Positions 4,587 through 35,781 of a stretch of 64,000 nt of DNA are shown here, one piece after another (position 1 is the stretch's first letter; every line of letters starts with the position of its first letter). Origin of the DNA: Planctomycetota bacterium (GTDB lineage: Bacteria; Planctomycetota; Phycisphaerae; UBA1845; UTPLA1); contig JACRIM010000003.1 in the NCBI GenBank assembly GCA_016235815.1, forward strand, positions 1 to 64,000, in the 5' to 3' direction. Both the position numbers and the translations under genes were made by a program. Below the pieces are notes generated by a model. That model had not been told where the DNA came from, ran no database searches, and saw only the letters and a program-made list of their open reading frames with translations.

Positions 4587-4732
4587 GCCTCAAGCCTCAA
4601 GCCTCAAGCCTCAGGTCTCAGGACTCAGGTCTCAAGACTCAAGACTCAAGACTCAGGACTCAGGACTCAGGACTCAAGCCTCAGGTCTCAGGACTCAAGC
4701 CTCAGGACTCAAGCCTCAGGACTCAAGACTCA
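4587..4732. repeat. Degenerate heptamer tandem array (CTCAAGA/CTCAGGA family)
   Basis: About twenty head-to-tail units of seven bases built from CTCA + AGC, AGA, GGA or GGT. The array runs into the stop of the small minus-strand gene at 4730. The same heptamer, in the opposite orientation, occurs inside the S9 peptidase gene at 34640-34717, so it is a dispersed family and not a local accident. In one frame it reads LRTQDS/LKPQDS without stops. Confidence 0.85.
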
Positions 4733-4894
4733 TTCCTCCGGCAGCACCTCGTTGAGGTACTTCTGAAACTCCCCCATCTTGTAGGAGATAAAACAAAAGG
4801 CATGATGCAGCGTGAGCCACTCGATGTCCGTCTCGTCGCCCTCGGCCTCGTGTCGCAACTCGTTCAACTTCGCCAATATCGTCTCCGCTTTCAT
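4730..4894 (-). CDS. Small hypothetical protein (54 residues)
   Basis: A 54-residue, mostly helical protein: MKAETILAKLNELRHEAEGD followed by an acidic-aromatic second half ending YLNEVLPEE. The start at 4894 is preferred over an upstream ATG because GGAG lies about 11 bases before it and because the upstream extension falls into a REP-like element. No family recognised. It has no close partner: the TMTC-like gene on the same strand ends at 5005, and the REP pair lies between the two genes. Confidence 0.5.
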   Translation of the reverse strand: MKAETILAKLNELRHEAEGDETDIEWLTLHHAFCFISYKMGEFQKYLNEVLPEE

Positions 4895-4925
4895 GGTGTG
4901 GGTACTCCGTCTGTCGTGCGCCATT

Positions 4926-4981
4926 GTAGGGTCCGCTGTGCGGACCGATCTCTCGTCATTGGTCCGAACAGCGGACCCTAC
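4926..4981. repeat. REP pair (REPIN-like), GTAG-type family
   Basis: Two 21-base REP units face each other (4926-4946 and 4961-4981) with one mismatch between arms and 14 bases between them. Each unit is GTAG followed by the perfect hairpin GGTCCGC-TGT-GCGGACC (the second unit has TTC for TGC on one side). A 5' GTAG plus hairpin is the known layout of REP sequences mobilised by RAYT transposases. A single unit lies at 14995-15015. Confidence 0.75.
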
Positions 4982-5004
4982 GCCTCAACAAGCGAAGTAT
5001 CCGC

Positions 5005-24843: not shown

Positions 24844-25358
24844 TCCCTTAAGGTAACACCGCCGCCCCGCGACTCGCAACCCAACACACCCCCCCCCCCC
24901 CCCCCGCTCCCCGCCCGCGCCGCCCGTTTCGATTTTTCGACTTTTCGATTTTTCGGCGTTTCGGCGTTTTGGCGTTTCGGCGTTTTGGCATTTTGGCGTT
25001 TTGGCTTTTGACATTTCAATTTCCCAATCCCCCCGCCCCTTCGCCCCCTCGACCCCTCCGCGCCCTTGGCCCCTCGACCCTTTGAACCCTTGAACCCTTA
25101 AACCCTTAAACCCTTGAGCACCCCTATCCCCACTCCCAAGTCCCCCATTCCCCCGGCCCCCAGATCCCCAGATCCCCAGGTCCCCCGATCCCCCGGCCCC
25201 CCGGTCCCCAGATCCCCCGTTCCCCCTTCCCCATATCCCCAAGTCCCCCAATCACCGCCCCCCAAAGTCCTTTGATGCCCGCACCGCCCCCAACCCCACC
25301 CCTCGCGACGACGACTATGGAATGCGATATTTCAACTCCTAATATCATCATAAAACAA
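24844..25358. other. Low-complexity region before parB
   Basis: 515 bases of biased repeats: a C17 tract (24889-24905), then TTTTCGG/TTTTGGC phrases (24926-25020), then CCCTTGAACCCTTAAACCC-type and CCCCAGATCCCCAGG-type units (25060-25255) with strict C on the plus strand. From 25320 the sequence becomes AT-rich (AATATCATCATAAAAC), a likely promoter area for parB. No gene is seen. The frames crossing it are artefacts of the repeats. Confidence 0.7.
24910..24960 (-). repeat. 51-bp inverted repeat, left copy
   Basis: Reverse complement of 28035-28085 with three mismatches in 51 bases (A/G exchanges within GAAAAxTCG units). The unit is AACGCC, three GAAAAxTC-type steps, then GAAACGGGCGGCGCGGGCGGG. 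The two copies face each other 3.1 kb apart and bracket parS, parB and two more genes. Confidence 0.85.
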
Positions 25359-31457: not shown

Positions 31458-33539
31458 TTACTTTGGGGCGGGGGTTAGGCGGATCAGGACTGCGCCGTGG
31501 CGCGGGATTTTTGTGGTGAAGGAGCCGTCGGCGGGGGCGAGTTCTTGTTTTAGCCAGAGATTGCGCACGTTGTGTTTGCCGCGGATGCCGAGGTCGGGCC
31601 AGCGGGCGGTGACGGTTGCTTCGCCGGCACCGCGGTTGAAGAGGCCGACGGCGATCGAGCCATCTTCGAGCGGGCGTGACCAGATCTCGGTGACGTCGGC
31701 TTTGGGTCCGTAGAGCAGCGTGCCGGTTCGGGCGACGCGGGCGGCTTGGCGGCCGAGCGCATCCTGATTGATCGCGAGCACGTCGGCATTGCCGAGCAAC
31801 GAAAACGTCAGGTCGTCGAGTTGCGACAGATCGCAGCCGATGAGCATCGGTGCGGCGAGCAGTGACCAGAGCGTGATGTGCGTTACTTGTTCGTTCGGCG
31901 TGAGGCGCGTGGCGTGGAGTGTCGGCCCCCAGCCGACGCGGCCGACGACGAGCATGTCGGGGTCGTTCCAATGGCCGGGGCGGGAGAATTCGGCGTGGGC
32001 ATGTTCGGCAAAACCGATGACGGACATGCAGGCCCAGGTGTCGATGATGTCGCCGGTGGTTCGCCAGTAGTTCCCGCCGACTTCGGCGCCCCACTCCCAG
32101 ACTTTGCCGCGGCCGTATTGGCAGATGCTGTAGACGATGTCGCGTCCGCAGACGTCGAGTGCGGCGCGCATCAACTCGTAGGGCTTTCGCAATTCGGCGC
32201 GGGGCAGGTCGTTGCTGATTTTTCCGTAGCTGCACCAATCGTATTTAAGCAGATCGATGCCCCACTCGGCGTAGGTGCGGGCGTCGTCGAGTTCGTGATC
32301 CTTGCTGCCTTCGAATTCGGCGCAGGTCTTGGGGCCGGGTGAGGAGTAAATGCCGAGCTTCAGGCCCATGCGGTGCAGGTGGCCGGCGAGGGCGCGCATG
32401 TCGGGGAATTTGTCGTTGGTGCGAATGCGGCCTTGTGCGTCGCGCGAGCCTTCCCATGCGTCGTCGATGTTTACGTAGGCATAACCAAGTGCGGCGAGAC
32501 CGCTGGACTCGAAGGCGGCGGCGGCGGCTTTGACCTTTGCTTCGTCGACGGATGTGCCCCATGCATTCCACGAGTTCCAACCCATCGGCGGCGTCTGGGC
32601 GAGGCGGTGTTCGACGCCGATGATGGTGAGCGTCGAGGAGGAGCGGCCGAGTGAGCCTTGTGCCGCGATGGTGACATCGGTGCGTCCGCGCTCCTTGAGC
32701 GTGCCGGAGATGATGCCGGAGTTGGCGTCGATTTTCAGCCCGGCGGGAAGGCGGTCGGCCGTGAAGCGCATCGGCCCCGCGCCGGTGGCGGGGACGCGAA
32801 AGAGGAAGGGGCGGCCGGGCGTTGCACCGACGACGAAGGGCGGGTGGATCTCGGGGACGCCGGTGAGATGATCGCCGGGCTTCATCATGACGATGGCGGG
32901 CGGGGCGGGGTCGACGATGCGACTGATGCGCGGTTTTGTCGTTGCACCGGGCTTCATTTCGATGCGAGCCATGGCCCAGTCGGCGTAGTCTTTGTCGATG
33001 CCGTCGCCGCCATCGTCGACGACGAGCCAGAGGCGCTTGGCGTTGGTGAGGTCGACGGAGATTTCGCGCGGTGGGCCGCCGCCGCGGAGGATCGCGGTGT
33101 GAGCGGCGTCGCGGTCATCGACCCATACGCTGAAGACGGCCGAGCCGAGCTTGCCCACTTCGTCGTCGATGCTGACGACGGCTTGAAAGCGTGTGGCAGC
33201 ACCGTCGAGGTCGATGATGATTTCCGATGGAGCATGGACACCGACACCACGAGGATAGGTTTGGCCGGCGAGAATGATGGGCTTGCCGACGAAGCACTTG
33301 GACTTGCCGGGCGAACCGGAACGGTCGTCGACACTGGAAAGCTCGCAATCATCGAGCCACACGGTGTCGGCAGGTTGTGTGGTAGTGGCGATGATTTCGG
33401 CGGCCTTTCGATTCAGGACTCGCGCGCCGCCGGCGTCTCCGCAGCCGGTGAGTATGACGACGGCAAGAAATAAAGCTGCGGAGGGTCCGAGGGGCCGGGG
33501 CCGAATGACAAATGACGAATTACCAATTACCAATGACAT
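31458..33539 (-). CDS. GH27 alpha-galactosidase lipoprotein with NPCBM domain
   Basis: A 693-residue lipoprotein with lipobox ILTGC (Cys33). About 50-195 is an NPCBM domain (YPRGVGVHAPSEIIIDLDG, FSVWVDDRDA). About 225-310 is a putative-Ig (He_PIG) linker (LPAGLKIDANSGIISGTLKE). From about 320 the GH27 barrel follows: TPPMGWNSWNAWG, YVNIDDAWEG, GIYSSPGPKTCAEFEGSKDH; the nucleophile Asp is in LLKYDWCSYG and the acid/base Asp in WNDPDMLVVG. It should release terminal alpha-galactose. The first 15 residues (MSLVIGNSSFVIRP) are read from a dispersed ATTCGTAATT-type repeat. GAGG before the start fits 33539. Confidence 0.9.
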   Translation of the reverse strand: MSLVIGNSSFVIRPRPLGPSAALFLAVVILTGCGDAGGARVLNRKAAEIIATTTQPADTVWLDDCELSSVDDRSGSPGKSKCFVGKPIILAGQTYPRGVGVHAPSEIIIDLDGAATRFQAVVSIDDEVGKLGSAVFSVWVDDRDAAHTAILRGGGPPREISVDLTNAKRLWLVVDDGGDGIDKDYADWAMARIEMKPGATTKPRISRIVDPAPPAIVMMKPGDHLTGVPEIHPPFVVGATPGRPFLFRVPATGAGPMRFTADRLPAGLKIDANSGIISGTLKERGRTDVTIAAQGSLGRSSSTLTIIGVEHRLAQTPPMGWNSWNAWGTSVDEAKVKAAAAAFESSGLAALGYAYVNIDDAWEGSRDAQGRIRTNDKFPDMRALAGHLHRMGLKLGIYSSPGPKTCAEFEGSKDHELDDARTYAEWGIDLLKYDWCSYGKISNDLPRAELRKPYELMRAALDVCGRDIVYSICQYGRGKVWEWGAEVGGNYWRTTGDIIDTWACMSVIGFAEHAHAEFSRPGHWNDPDMLVVGRVGWGPTLHATRLTPNEQVTHITLWSLLAAPMLIGCDLSQLDDLTFSLLGNADVLAINQDALGRQAARVARTGTLLYGPKADVTEIWSRPLEDGSIAVGLFNRGAGEATVTARWPDLGIRGKHNVRNLWLKQELAPADGSFTTKIPRHGAVLIRLTPAPK

Positions 33540-33612
33540 ACGACCTCGCGCCATTTGTAATTCGTAATTCGACATTGGCAATTTGCTCTCGGTTGTGCCG
33601 GGGATTCTTTCG

Positions 33613-35781
33613 TCATTCGCTTTTTGCTGCCTTGTCGAGGCCGACGTCGATCTCGGCGGGGGGCGGGGCGCCGCCGGGGCCTTTCAGATAATGATCGAAC
33701 CATTGCATCATGCGGATGGTGTAGTCGAGTTTCAATGCGGCTTTTCGATTGCCGTGGCCCTCGCCGGGGAATTGCACGAGGCGGACTGGTGTCTGGCCGA
33801 CGGTTTTCAGGAAGCGATAGAGTTCGAGCGACTGGCTGGGGTGGACGCGCGTGTCGTTCTTGCCGCCCATGATGAGGATGGGCGTCTTTGCTTTTGCGAC
33901 GTGGAAGATCGGGCTGCGCTTGAGCGAGAAGAGCCAGTTCTTTTCGTCTTCCCAGATTTTCATGCGGGTGTGGACGAGGAAGTCTTCGTTGGGAATATCC
34001 GTCGTGGCTTTCTTGGAGATGGTGTCGCTGATGCCGACGGACATGACGCCGGCGGCGAAGTGCTCGGTGAGGGCGGTGCAGCACCATGCCGTTGCATAGC
34101 CGCCGTAGGAGCCGCCGGTGACGCCGACCTTGCTCTTGTCGATCGGGAGCGTTTCGCAAAGATACTTCGCGGCGTCGACGAGGTCGTCGAATTCGGCACC
34201 GGCTTCATCGCCCTGGCTGAGCTTGCTGAACGGCACGCCGCGGCCGGTGCTGCCGCGATAGTTGGGGTAGAAGGTGAAGTAGCCGGCGGATGCGCCGAGC
34301 TGGCCGGGTCGCCAGTAGTTGGTGAGCCAGCCGTCGCGTTCGTGGGATTCGGGCCCGCCGTGAACGCAGAGGATGAGGGGAAACATCATGCGCGGGGCTT
34401 CGTCGGCGGGGCGGATGAGGATGCCTTCGAGTTCAACTCCGTCGCGGGCCTTGTAGCGAATGACTTCCTGCTTGCCCATGTTCATGTTGGCGAGCCAGGG
34501 GTTGCTGTCGGTGAGTTTTCTTGGTGCGGCGTCGCCGTGTTTCATGAAGAAGAGTTCGGGCGGATAGTTTGCGGTGCTGCCGATGAAGGCGCCGTTCATG
34601 CCGTCGCGCGAGAGAGTGAAGTCGGTGAGGCTGAGAGGGGAGTCTTGAGTCCTGAGTCCTGAGTCTTGAGATTTGAGGCCCGCCACGGCGGATGTTCCAT
34701 TTGAGGCTTGAGATTTCGTCCCCGGTGCGACAATCAGCTTCTTGTTCGCCCCAGTCGCTTCCACCTTGCCGAAGCCGGTTTCGCAGCCTTCATCACCGAG
34801 GAACATGACGGTGTTGTTGTCCTGCCAGCCGAAGGCACTGACGGCGCCTTCGTATTTTGGAAGCACGTCGGTGAGTTTGCCGGTGGCGACACTGCCGACC
34901 ATGAGGCGGCCGTCGGAAGGATCGTGAATGTCTTCGGCGGACATGATGGCGATGTGTTTTCCGTCGGGCGACCAGGCGAGGGGGCCGAGCTTGCCGGGGT
35001 TGTCGAACATGAGCAGGACTTTGCCGGTTTCAACGTCGACGACGTGGACCTTGCGTTTCATGTATTCGTCGTCGACGAGGGGCGTGGGCGAGAGGGCGAC
35101 GAGGAGTTGATCACCGGTCGGGCTCCACTTGATCGTCGAGGCCGAGCCGGGGAGGTCGAGCATGCGCGGCTTGGCGTCGTCTTTGCCGAGTTCGGCGATC
35201 CAGATGCGGGTGTTTTGCAGTTCCTCTTCGTAGACTTCGGCGGTGAAGCCTTTGTCTTTGGCGTCCTTCTTGGCCTTGGGGGTTTCCTCTTTGGCGAGGA
35301 AGGCGACACGGTTGCCGTCGGGGCTGAGGGTGTAGCCGTCGAGATCGGTCTTGGCGGAGGCGATGCGCTGGGCCTCGCCGCCGTCGACGGCGATTTTGTA
35401 GAGCGAGGTGTTTTTATCTTTCGGTCGCTTGGCGAGGAAGGTGATGTACTTGGAGTCGGGCGTCCATTGGACGTCGTTGACGTTTACTTCGCCGGTGATG
35501 AAGGGGCGGGTTGCGCCGTCGGCAACGCGGACGATGTGAAGCTCGGCCCAGTTCGGACCGTCTTCGTATTTGTCGTCGCCGGTCTTGAATGGGTCGCGCG
35601 GGACGGAGAGGACGTAAGCGATGTGGGAGGCGTCGGGCGCGATGACGGCACTGGTGACGCTGCGTAGTTTTGCGACGTGGCGCGGCGTCCACGGTTCGCC
35701 GGCCGTAGCGGCGGCGGACATGGCGGCAAGCAGGCAGGCCACCAGACAGATTGATCGTCCACGTTTTTGAATCGTGCGCAT
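33613..35781 (-). CDS. S9 family (prolyl oligopeptidase-type) exported peptidase
   Basis: A 722-residue exported peptidase. Signal peptide at 1-27 (CLVACLLAAMSAAATA). An N-terminal seven-bladed propeller with WD40-like strands (WSPDGKHIA, LSPDGNRVA) spans about 35-440, and the alpha/beta hydrolase catalytic domain about 460-700 with Ser in TGGSYGGYATA, Asp in GGKNDTRVHPSQS and His in PGEGHGNR. It cleaves oligopeptides, acyl-aminoacyl peptidase-like. A heptamer repeat lies in frame at residues about 356-381 (GLKSQDSGLRTQDS). GAGGATGAC precedes the start. It is 73 bases upstream of the GH27 gene on the same strand. Confidence 0.92.
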   Translation of the reverse strand: MRTIQKRGRSICLVACLLAAMSAAATAGEPWTPRHVAKLRSVTSAVIAPDASHIAYVLSVPRDPFKTGDDKYEDGPNWAELHIVRVADGATRPFITGEVNVNDVQWTPDSKYITFLAKRPKDKNTSLYKIAVDGGEAQRIASAKTDLDGYTLSPDGNRVAFLAKEETPKAKKDAKDKGFTAEVYEEELQNTRIWIAELGKDDAKPRMLDLPGSASTIKWSPTGDQLLVALSPTPLVDDEYMKRKVHVVDVETGKVLLMFDNPGKLGPLAWSPDGKHIAIMSAEDIHDPSDGRLMVGSVATGKLTDVLPKYEGAVSAFGWQDNNTVMFLGDEGCETGFGKVEATGANKKLIVAPGTKSQASNGTSAVAGLKSQDSGLRTQDSPLSLTDFTLSRDGMNGAFIGSTANYPPELFFMKHGDAAPRKLTDSNPWLANMNMGKQEVIRYKARDGVELEGILIRPADEAPRMMFPLILCVHGGPESHERDGWLTNYWRPGQLGASAGYFTFYPNYRGSTGRGVPFSKLSQGDEAGAEFDDLVDAAKYLCETLPIDKSKVGVTGGSYGGYATAWCCTALTEHFAAGVMSVGISDTISKKATTDIPNEDFLVHTRMKIWEDEKNWLFSLKRSPIFHVAKAKTPILIMGGKNDTRVHPSQSLELYRFLKTVGQTPVRLVQFPGEGHGNRKAALKLDYTIRMMQWFDHYLKGPGGAPPPAEIDVGLDKAAKSE
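34640..34717. repeat. Heptamer repeat inside the S9 peptidase gene
   Basis: GAGTCTTGAGTCCTGAGTCC and following units (34640-34678) plus TTGAGGCTTGAGATTT (34701-34717), the reverse complement of the array at 4587-4732. It is translated as part of a propeller loop without breaking the frame. Confidence 0.8.

Follow-up and report, generated by a model that had tools for sequence, protein, structure and literature searches.

Introduction

Heptamers are over-represented in bacterial genomes, and the parts of PMC4692102 and PMC4679880 considered here set out the idea that this reflects the footprint of the polymerase. According to the same portions of these papers, the arrays known as STRRs (Calothrix, Nostoc, Xanthomonas with GGGAATC, Beggiatoaceae with TAACTGA) consist of 7-nt tandem units of many families, lie mostly between genes and vary in unit number. 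The intervening sequence (IVS) of 23S rRNA with its S23p ORF is 428 nt long in Coxiella, where it has been called a selfish element and where heptameric repeats ahead of S23p differ in number between strains; the sections of that paper drawn on here (PMC4990558) give heptamers beside S23p without generalising from them. Small dispersed repeats may also be translated inside proteins, as described, in the excerpts used, for in-frame REPs, with uvrA and dnaE2 among their hosts, and for the Rickettsia RPE (PMC3733652).

Here we describe heptamers of one family, CTCARGN, in a stretch of 64,000 nt of planctomycete DNA (the window) and in the genome from which it comes. With STRRs these arrays share tandem 7-nt units, many families and a mostly intergenic placement, and their unit number varies within a paralogous pair; they differ in that many lie in frame within core genes and in that their class is tied to the arms of elements carrying a gene for the four-helix-bundle 23S-rRNA-intervening-sequence protein (hereafter 4HB). 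Such elements resemble the Coxiella IVS in protein family, size, stem-forming complementary ends and ORF-adjacent heptamers, but the loci analysed here lie outside rRNA genes (between genes, or in dnaE2), have arms made of 7- or 8-mer arrays and show a short imperfect duplication at some sites. Unlike REP and RPE, which are single palindromes, the units are tandem heptamers. Among titles and abstract openings of the open-licence literature, no statement linking heptamer arrays to 4HB element arms outside rRNA genes was found.

Results

An in-frame heptamer tract in an S9 peptidase gene

The host gene and its tract have the following coordinates in the window.

33613-35781, minus strand: gene for an S9 (prolyl oligopeptidase family) peptidase of 722 aa, host of the tract (ORF call; PF00326, E=1.7e-44, residues 494-700)
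34629-34712, minus strand: tract of 12 heptamers (84 nt, 28 codons) coding for the TKSQASNGTSAVAGLKSQDSGLRTQDSPLS region, without counterpart in homologues
34678-34698, minus strand: 21-nt module GGAACAT CCGCCGT GGCGGGC within the tract

In minus-strand register, the tract reads CTCAAGC CTCAAAT (GGAACAT CCGCCGT GGCGGGC) CTCAAAT CTCAAGA CTCAGGA CTCAGGA CTCAAGA CTCCCCT CTCAGCC, the module being set in brackets. Its units are mostly CTCARGN and are translated on the coding strand into a peptide of SQDSGLRTQDS type, ahead of the conserved C-terminal half of the protein, which begins at about residue 385 as judged from tblastn matches. An earlier note on this DNA had reported heptamers here, of the same family as an array at 4.6 kb, inverted and read as SQDSGLRTQDS. 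Minus-strand CTCARGN units are indeed read in frame as that peptide, but the tract spans 34629-34712 and not 34640-34717. The S9 reading frame is kept because 12 heptamers of 7 nt make 84 nt, that is, 28 codons.

In an alignment of 24 S9 sequences from the same order, the tract was missing from all 20 usable homologues, whose loop is uninterrupted at this position with a net difference of 27-28 residues. The four rows left uncounted were L039 (wrong strand taken), L031 (the chosen ORF fails to align in this region), L055 (of insufficient length) and L054, which is only distantly related and likewise lacks the insert. Thus, the homologues do not share the loop, conservation of which the earlier note had regarded as telling against its reading. 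The 60 relatives searched included no other genome of the source genus. Inspection by eye revealed no target duplication at the insert, and the tract comprises one arm only, with neither a PF05635 ORF nor a complementary-end stem; in place of the single GTAG- or CGTC-tagged palindrome of a REP or RPE, it has the untagged CCGCC..GGCGG module.

The CTCARGN family is dispersed in the genome and present in genes

The second CTCARGN locus of the window is intergenic.

4589-4732, plus strand: intergenic CTCARGN array of about 20 units (TRF)

For this array, the earlier count of about 20 units agrees with the 20.6 copies found by TRF; the end at 4732 stands, and the start is corrected to 4589. Its last bases provide the TGA stop of a small minus-strand ORF (4730-4924). 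The window has 12 matches to three consecutive CTCARGM units, whereas 100 dinucleotide shuffles gave 0. Across the 4.58-Mb, 60-contig assembly, exact, overlapping matches numbered 97+56; a reversed-pattern control gave 10+5 but lacks independence, since reversing CTCAGGA merely rotates it. With these matches and 46 mapped arrays, tandem 7-nt units are scattered over many sites of one genome, as is the case for STRRs. The absence of further arrays, the other finding that the earlier note had thought fatal to its reading, is contradicted by dozens besides the S9 tract, and several contigs end near arrays, so the true number is probably higher. The occurrence of the triplet is patchy: it was present in 15 of 294 genomes of the phylum and in 10 of the 61 in the nearest set, the source genome (G000) being included in both.

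Many arrays are preceded by ..GCGC or ..GCAC, and at several of them repeats are stacked in a constant order, namely GTGCCTC-type octamers, GTTCCCC heptamers, CTCARGN and then TTTTGCGGCC-type decamers. A similar 21-nt CCGCC NN GGCGG module precedes or interrupts CTCARGN arrays at five loci (S9, L094/L102, L111, L114 and L119). No inverted CTCARGN pair within 900 nt was found among the arrays fetched in the source genome; therefore, the arrays there, that of S9 included, would be solo arms. In heterocystous cyanobacteria, rnpB genes with a repeat array occur; rnpB of the source genome has none.

When the 46 arrays (one entered twice through overlapping contig ends, L094/L102) were mapped to predicted ORFs, 17 lay wholly inside (two of them in a doubtful upstream extension, L118), 2 overlapped only the 3′ end of an opposite-strand ORF and 27 overlapped none, the last figure matching the mostly intergenic placement of STRRs. 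This supports the earlier interpretation of a seven-base repeat spreading even into genes. The coding strand is the CTC strand in 17/17 in-ORF arrays, a rule that needs no mechanism, since 21 nt of (NCYTGAG)n suffice for a TGA in every frame. A total length suited to the frame, which had been proposed as the requirement for survival, is what the 84 nt of the S9 tract provide; elsewhere in genes, unit counts are often 4, 5, 7 or 8 and hence not divisible by three, and partial units and flanking bases therefore absorb frame as well.

By profile search, the hosts above curated cut-offs are UvrA (three inserts), SMC, error-prone DNA polymerase, PurK and a TIGR03960 radical-SAM protein; MutL (two inserts), a class I/II aminotransferase and an M48 peptidase were identified by profile as further hosts, and a PKS/PfaA-like fragment matched below cut-off. 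Five inserts in three proteins were aligned with relatives (UvrA at three places in 14 rows, the aminotransferase in 5 rows, the TIGR03960 protein in 14 rows), and all lie at length-variable positions. The aminotransferase exceeds three of the four homologues shown by 8-9 residues and the fourth by 2, and the TIGR03960 protein exceeds 12 of 14 homologues by 10 residues and two by 7. The same loop of the TIGR03960 protein contains about two and a half ATCCGCA units in the sister genome G012 (L156); therefore, other families may enter the same loops. The UvrA linker that holds CTCARGN in the source genome reads NPKSKI and NSEWRIANSE in sister genera (L122 of G012 and L123 of G008), which at the protein level resemble the peptides of other heptamer families.

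Recent activity, as the earlier note had suspected, is supported by two one-heptamer differences. One separates a paralogous pair in the source genome (L113/L114; 1130 nt, 91% identity; 4 and 5 units), and the other separates two Nostoc plasmids, 97.5% identical here, in an arm of another family, GGGAACA. In L113/L114, the extra unit shifts the N-terminal stretch common to both copies out of the frame of their common body, a possible on/off switch. The paralogues (L113:2636-3712 and L114:2343-3065) have no known family.

Other repeat families and hairpins

Several 7- and 8-mer families coexist in the source genome, beyond what the earlier note had seen. Three further features belong to the window.

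24925-25250, no strand assigned: octamer arrays, TRF consensus TTTCGATT, TTTTGGCG, CCCCTCGC and GTCCCCCG
33506-33540, plus strand: left arm of an inverted pair of a second heptamer family, TKACNAA
33553-33587, minus strand: inverted partner arm, ATTYGTA units

The TKACNAA pair forms a hairpin that has a 12-nt loop and lacks a 4HB gene. The ORF at 31458-33581, next to the S9 gene, has its predicted start in this hairpin, so the N-terminus of its product (..VIGNSSFVIR) would be repeat-derived. Exact TKACNAA triplets number 24 in the source genome, and another gene-less array hairpin of this family lies at L297 9017-9123. Compared with MITEs, the TKACNAA hairpins have inverted ends, whereas the S9 tract has a single arm. 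The TTTTGGCG unit is also found in the weak arm of a 4HB gene at L294. Exact triplets of TTTTGGCG or GTGCCTY are absent from the window and from an 800-kb sample of the genome, so these octamers are linked by TRF consensus and by reading. Near-perfect arrays in the 800-kb sample, counted at a threshold that misses degenerate ones such as that at 4589, numbered 14, of which 9 had period 7 or 8 (5 and 4, respectively); codon-block shuffles gave 0.

A GTAG-tagged palindrome, GTAGGGTCCGCTGTGCGGACC, occurs with an inverted partner at window positions 4926-4982 and abuts arrays in L100, L104, L107 and L117; the hairpin is translated (VGSAVRT) in DnaE2 and in the PKS-like protein.

4HB genes are usually flanked by inverted 7- or 8-base arrays

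Arrays of these kinds are the arms of 4HB elements: 4HB genes are flanked by tandem arrays of mostly 7-base, otherwise 8-base units, usually inverted. We compiled 55 loci, comprising 49 plasmid or IMG/VR loci found by protein similarity alone, two from the 800-kb sample, and L075 and three dnaE2 loci, which, having been found via arrays or alignments, do not count as blindly sampled. For plasmids, 19 of 28 matches were scored (16 of the 19 cyanobacterial), and for IMG/VR 30 of 30. PF05635 matched with E-values of 2e-18 to 3e-36 in the six loci scanned, the others being identified by a custom profile. The protein also matches the DGR accessory protein Avd weakly (bAvd, E=6.5e-06, below the Pfam cut-off), but by curated cut-offs it is not Avd, and no reverse transcriptase lies within 1.5 kb among the listed features of the 17 annotated plasmid loci. 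Solved structures of relatives are 2gsc and 2rld.

On 200-bp flanks, the inverted-repeat score exceeded 24 in 42 of 55 loci (38 of 47 non-redundant), compared with 10 of 121 neighbouring genes, whose flanks are partly the same arrays, and 4 of 476 genes of the source genome, a control that differs in base composition from most 4HB loci and whose 99th percentile, once seen, set the cut-off. Fisher's P for 38/47 against 4/476 is about 1e-44, a guide only, as the loci are interrelated. Within the 49 similarity-found loci, the score was exceeded in 36 (12/19 plasmid, 24/30 IMG/VR). A tandem score of at least 8 on at least one side was reached by 48 of 55 loci (42 of 47 non-redundant), 58 of 121 neighbouring genes and 71 of 476 source-genome genes. 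The best left-arm period among 40 scoring non-redundant loci was 7 in 34 and 8 in 5; in the source-genome control, period 7 or 8 occurred in 9/35. Thirteen of the 55 loci were at or under the score cut-off, with L349 having neither arm nor score, and at L326, L328 and L360 the best arrays on both sides run in the same direction.

The spaced 800-kb sample contained two 4HB genes, both above the score: one with GCGAATA arms (50), between atpG-like and atpD-like genes named from their translated ends, and one with weak CCAAAACG-type octamer arms (31). The arms pair on RNA folding of three elements (z of -9.2, -3.2 and -4.1; 25 shuffles each), so the elements have the stem-forming complementary ends of an IVS. 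As for location, an IVS lies in 23S rRNA and is excised by RNase III, whereas the annotated plasmid loci and six loci of the phylum lie outside 23S and other rRNA genes. Elements were also noted between cas6 and cas4 (L325, L328), between cas10 and a cmr3 gene (L327) and beside sufB (L338). A plasmid of Trichormus variabilis ATCC 29413 has an element that is identical to L330 across that stretch.

Arms and 4HB gene arrive together at empty sites

DnaE2 of the source genome has a further insert, 186 codons over the empty site, which holds a 123-aa ORF in a different frame. This ORF encodes a 4HB protein (PF05635 E=1.5e-32, TIGR02436 E=1.3e-32) and lies between octamer arrays, AGGCACAA and, inverted, TTGTGCCT. 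At the same place in dnaE2, G015 has a 4HB gene between GGGAACA and TGTTCCC heptamers (171 codons) and G003 one between AGGCACGA octamers (297 codons), the DnaE2 frame being open through all three inserts. The empty site is 36 aa long in G013 and G007, and the insert is also missing from G008, G001, G014 and G009 in the alignment. An antisense transposase was considered for the DnaE2 insert and rejected, as within it the minus strand lacks any ORF of at least 80 aa and the 4HB ORF runs along the plus strand.

In seven aligned pairs of filled and empty alleles, representing six sites, arms and 4HB gene arrive together, and none of the seven empty alleles has an array. Between Trichormus (filled) and Nostoc linckia (empty), the sides are 99.3% and 98.5% identical and the filled allele is longer by 428 nt; an imperfect 8-bp repeat (GTAATAAA/GTAATTAA) marks the ends. 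At one site, two filled Nostoc plasmids are 418 nt longer than an empty one (flanks 88-97% identical) and show an imperfect 10-bp repeat; a third filled plasmid has 506 nt more, with a 3-bp overlap, where a stop and a start codon meet (TAATG). The 8-10 bp duplications at two sites, seen where BLAST pieces overlap, contain one to three mismatches and may in part have arisen by chance. In three of the seven pairs, 42, 32 and 11 nt were replaced rather than cleanly interrupted. Between Nostoc sp. C052 and N. edaphicum, the right arm differs by one heptamer.

Links between CTCARGN and 4HB genes

CTCARGN itself is tied to a 4HB gene at one locus only, L075 of G107 in the same phylum, which was fetched because it bears an array: CTCAGGA units lie downstream of the gene, and inverted GAGTCAT/GAGTTCT units upstream. 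Within the source genome, the link is by class. There, GTTCCCN is dispersed, a unit that forms the arms around 4HB genes in G015 and Nostoc, and the only fetched array region with a 4HB gene is that of DnaE2, about 0.9 kb off and with other arms. In viral sequences, 53 IMG/VR stretches had CTCARGM triplets; a permuted pattern was found in 20, and the difference is too slight to bear weight. None of the 53 had a 4HB match, and 4HB genes are present on 30 IMG/VR contigs. The 4HB protein of L321 had no match in GenBank phages (E 1e-5). Carriage of the arrays by phages is thus not supported.

Discussion

We consider it probable, at about 0.6, that the S9 tract, drawn from the dispersed CTCARGN repeat, represents an arm of the 4HB-element class, solo or relic, that lies in frame. 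In the mechanism we propose, 7- and 8-nt tandem repeats would be the terminal, usually inverted arms of small mobile elements, about 420-560 nt (once 891 nt) in size, that carry the 4HB 'S23' gene (PF05635/TIGR02436). An intact element (arm, 4HB gene, inverted arm) would enter intergenic sites, many of them stop/start junctions, and in some cases genes such as dnaE2; gene-less hairpins and solo arrays such as that of S9, which may descend from a 4HB element, would be its relics. Within genes, the survivors would be copies of frame-keeping length with the CTC strand coding, since the reverse strand has TGA in all three frames, and settled arrays would gain or lose whole heptamers, presumably by slippage. 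Movement might proceed via hairpin RNA or single-stranded DNA and might be aided by the 4HB protein. More tentative, at somewhat under even odds, is the generalisation that 4HB (S23/IVS) elements are the makers and spreaders of heptamer STRRs in bacteria at large, their solo arms entering genomes and, in frame, proteins. On this view, one arm might be synthesised or corrected from the other via a hairpin intermediate, as is suggested by arms that match within an element yet differ between elements sharing a site.

The same arrays might instead be ordinary STRRs that grew from chance seeds by polymerase slippage and recombination, with a 7-nt period given by the length of DNA held by the polymerase and an incidental link to 4HB. 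Slippage and a 7-nt polymerase footprint have been proposed in the parts of PMC4692102 and PMC4679880 cited above, and the one-unit length differences observed here fit; yet this leaves unexplained the 21-nt module common to five loci, S9 included, the joint arrival of arms and 4HB gene at empty sites and the period of 7 or 8 in 39/40 scoring left arms, and we regard it as unlikely. Homing of the 4HB gene into pre-existing array hairpins, so that the arms are its target and not part of the element, would account for gene-less hairpins (L297 9017-9123; window 33506-33587) and for arms that differ between elements at the one dnaE2 site. As the empty allele is array-free in all seven pairs, homing is disfavoured at those six sites, and overall it seems improbable.

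We likewise give little credence to carriage of the arrays, with REP palindromes, by Y1/RAYT transposases. GTAG-type GTAGGGTCCGCTGTGCGGACC hairpins do abut arrays at the four loci named above, in-frame REPs are described for uvrA and dnaE2 elsewhere (PMC3733652, in the excerpts used), and of the ten PF01797 (Y1_Tnp) matches in the source genome two lie within about 1.2 kb of a CTCARGN array (C31:3056-3400, C56:6-197). This proximity could be chance, however; most listed arrays, that of S9 included, have no such hairpin in the 35 bp shown, and 7/8-mer arms appear to accompany 4HB genes whether or not a REP is near. Selection of the inserted peptide (SQDSGLR/TQDSGLK) for a function in the host protein, or a regulatory role of the arrays, appears very improbable. 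Several hosts are DNA-repair or replication genes (UvrA, MutL, SMC, DnaE2), and regulation by TAACTGA repeats has been proposed for Beggiatoaceae in the part of PMC4679880 considered; against this, one peptide is common to unrelated proteins, and the five aligned positions are length-variable in relatives.

If 4HB elements write heptamers, the over-representation of heptamers in bacteria would have a single cause, and the in-frame copies in UvrA, MutL, SMC and DnaE2 would illustrate how such DNA reshapes core proteins. The wider reading brings together heptamer repeats and the S23/IVS protein, both of which have long lacked an explanation in bacterial genomes: were the repeats the arms of IVS-type elements, the protein would gain a candidate role, in movement or arm binding, and the repeats an origin.
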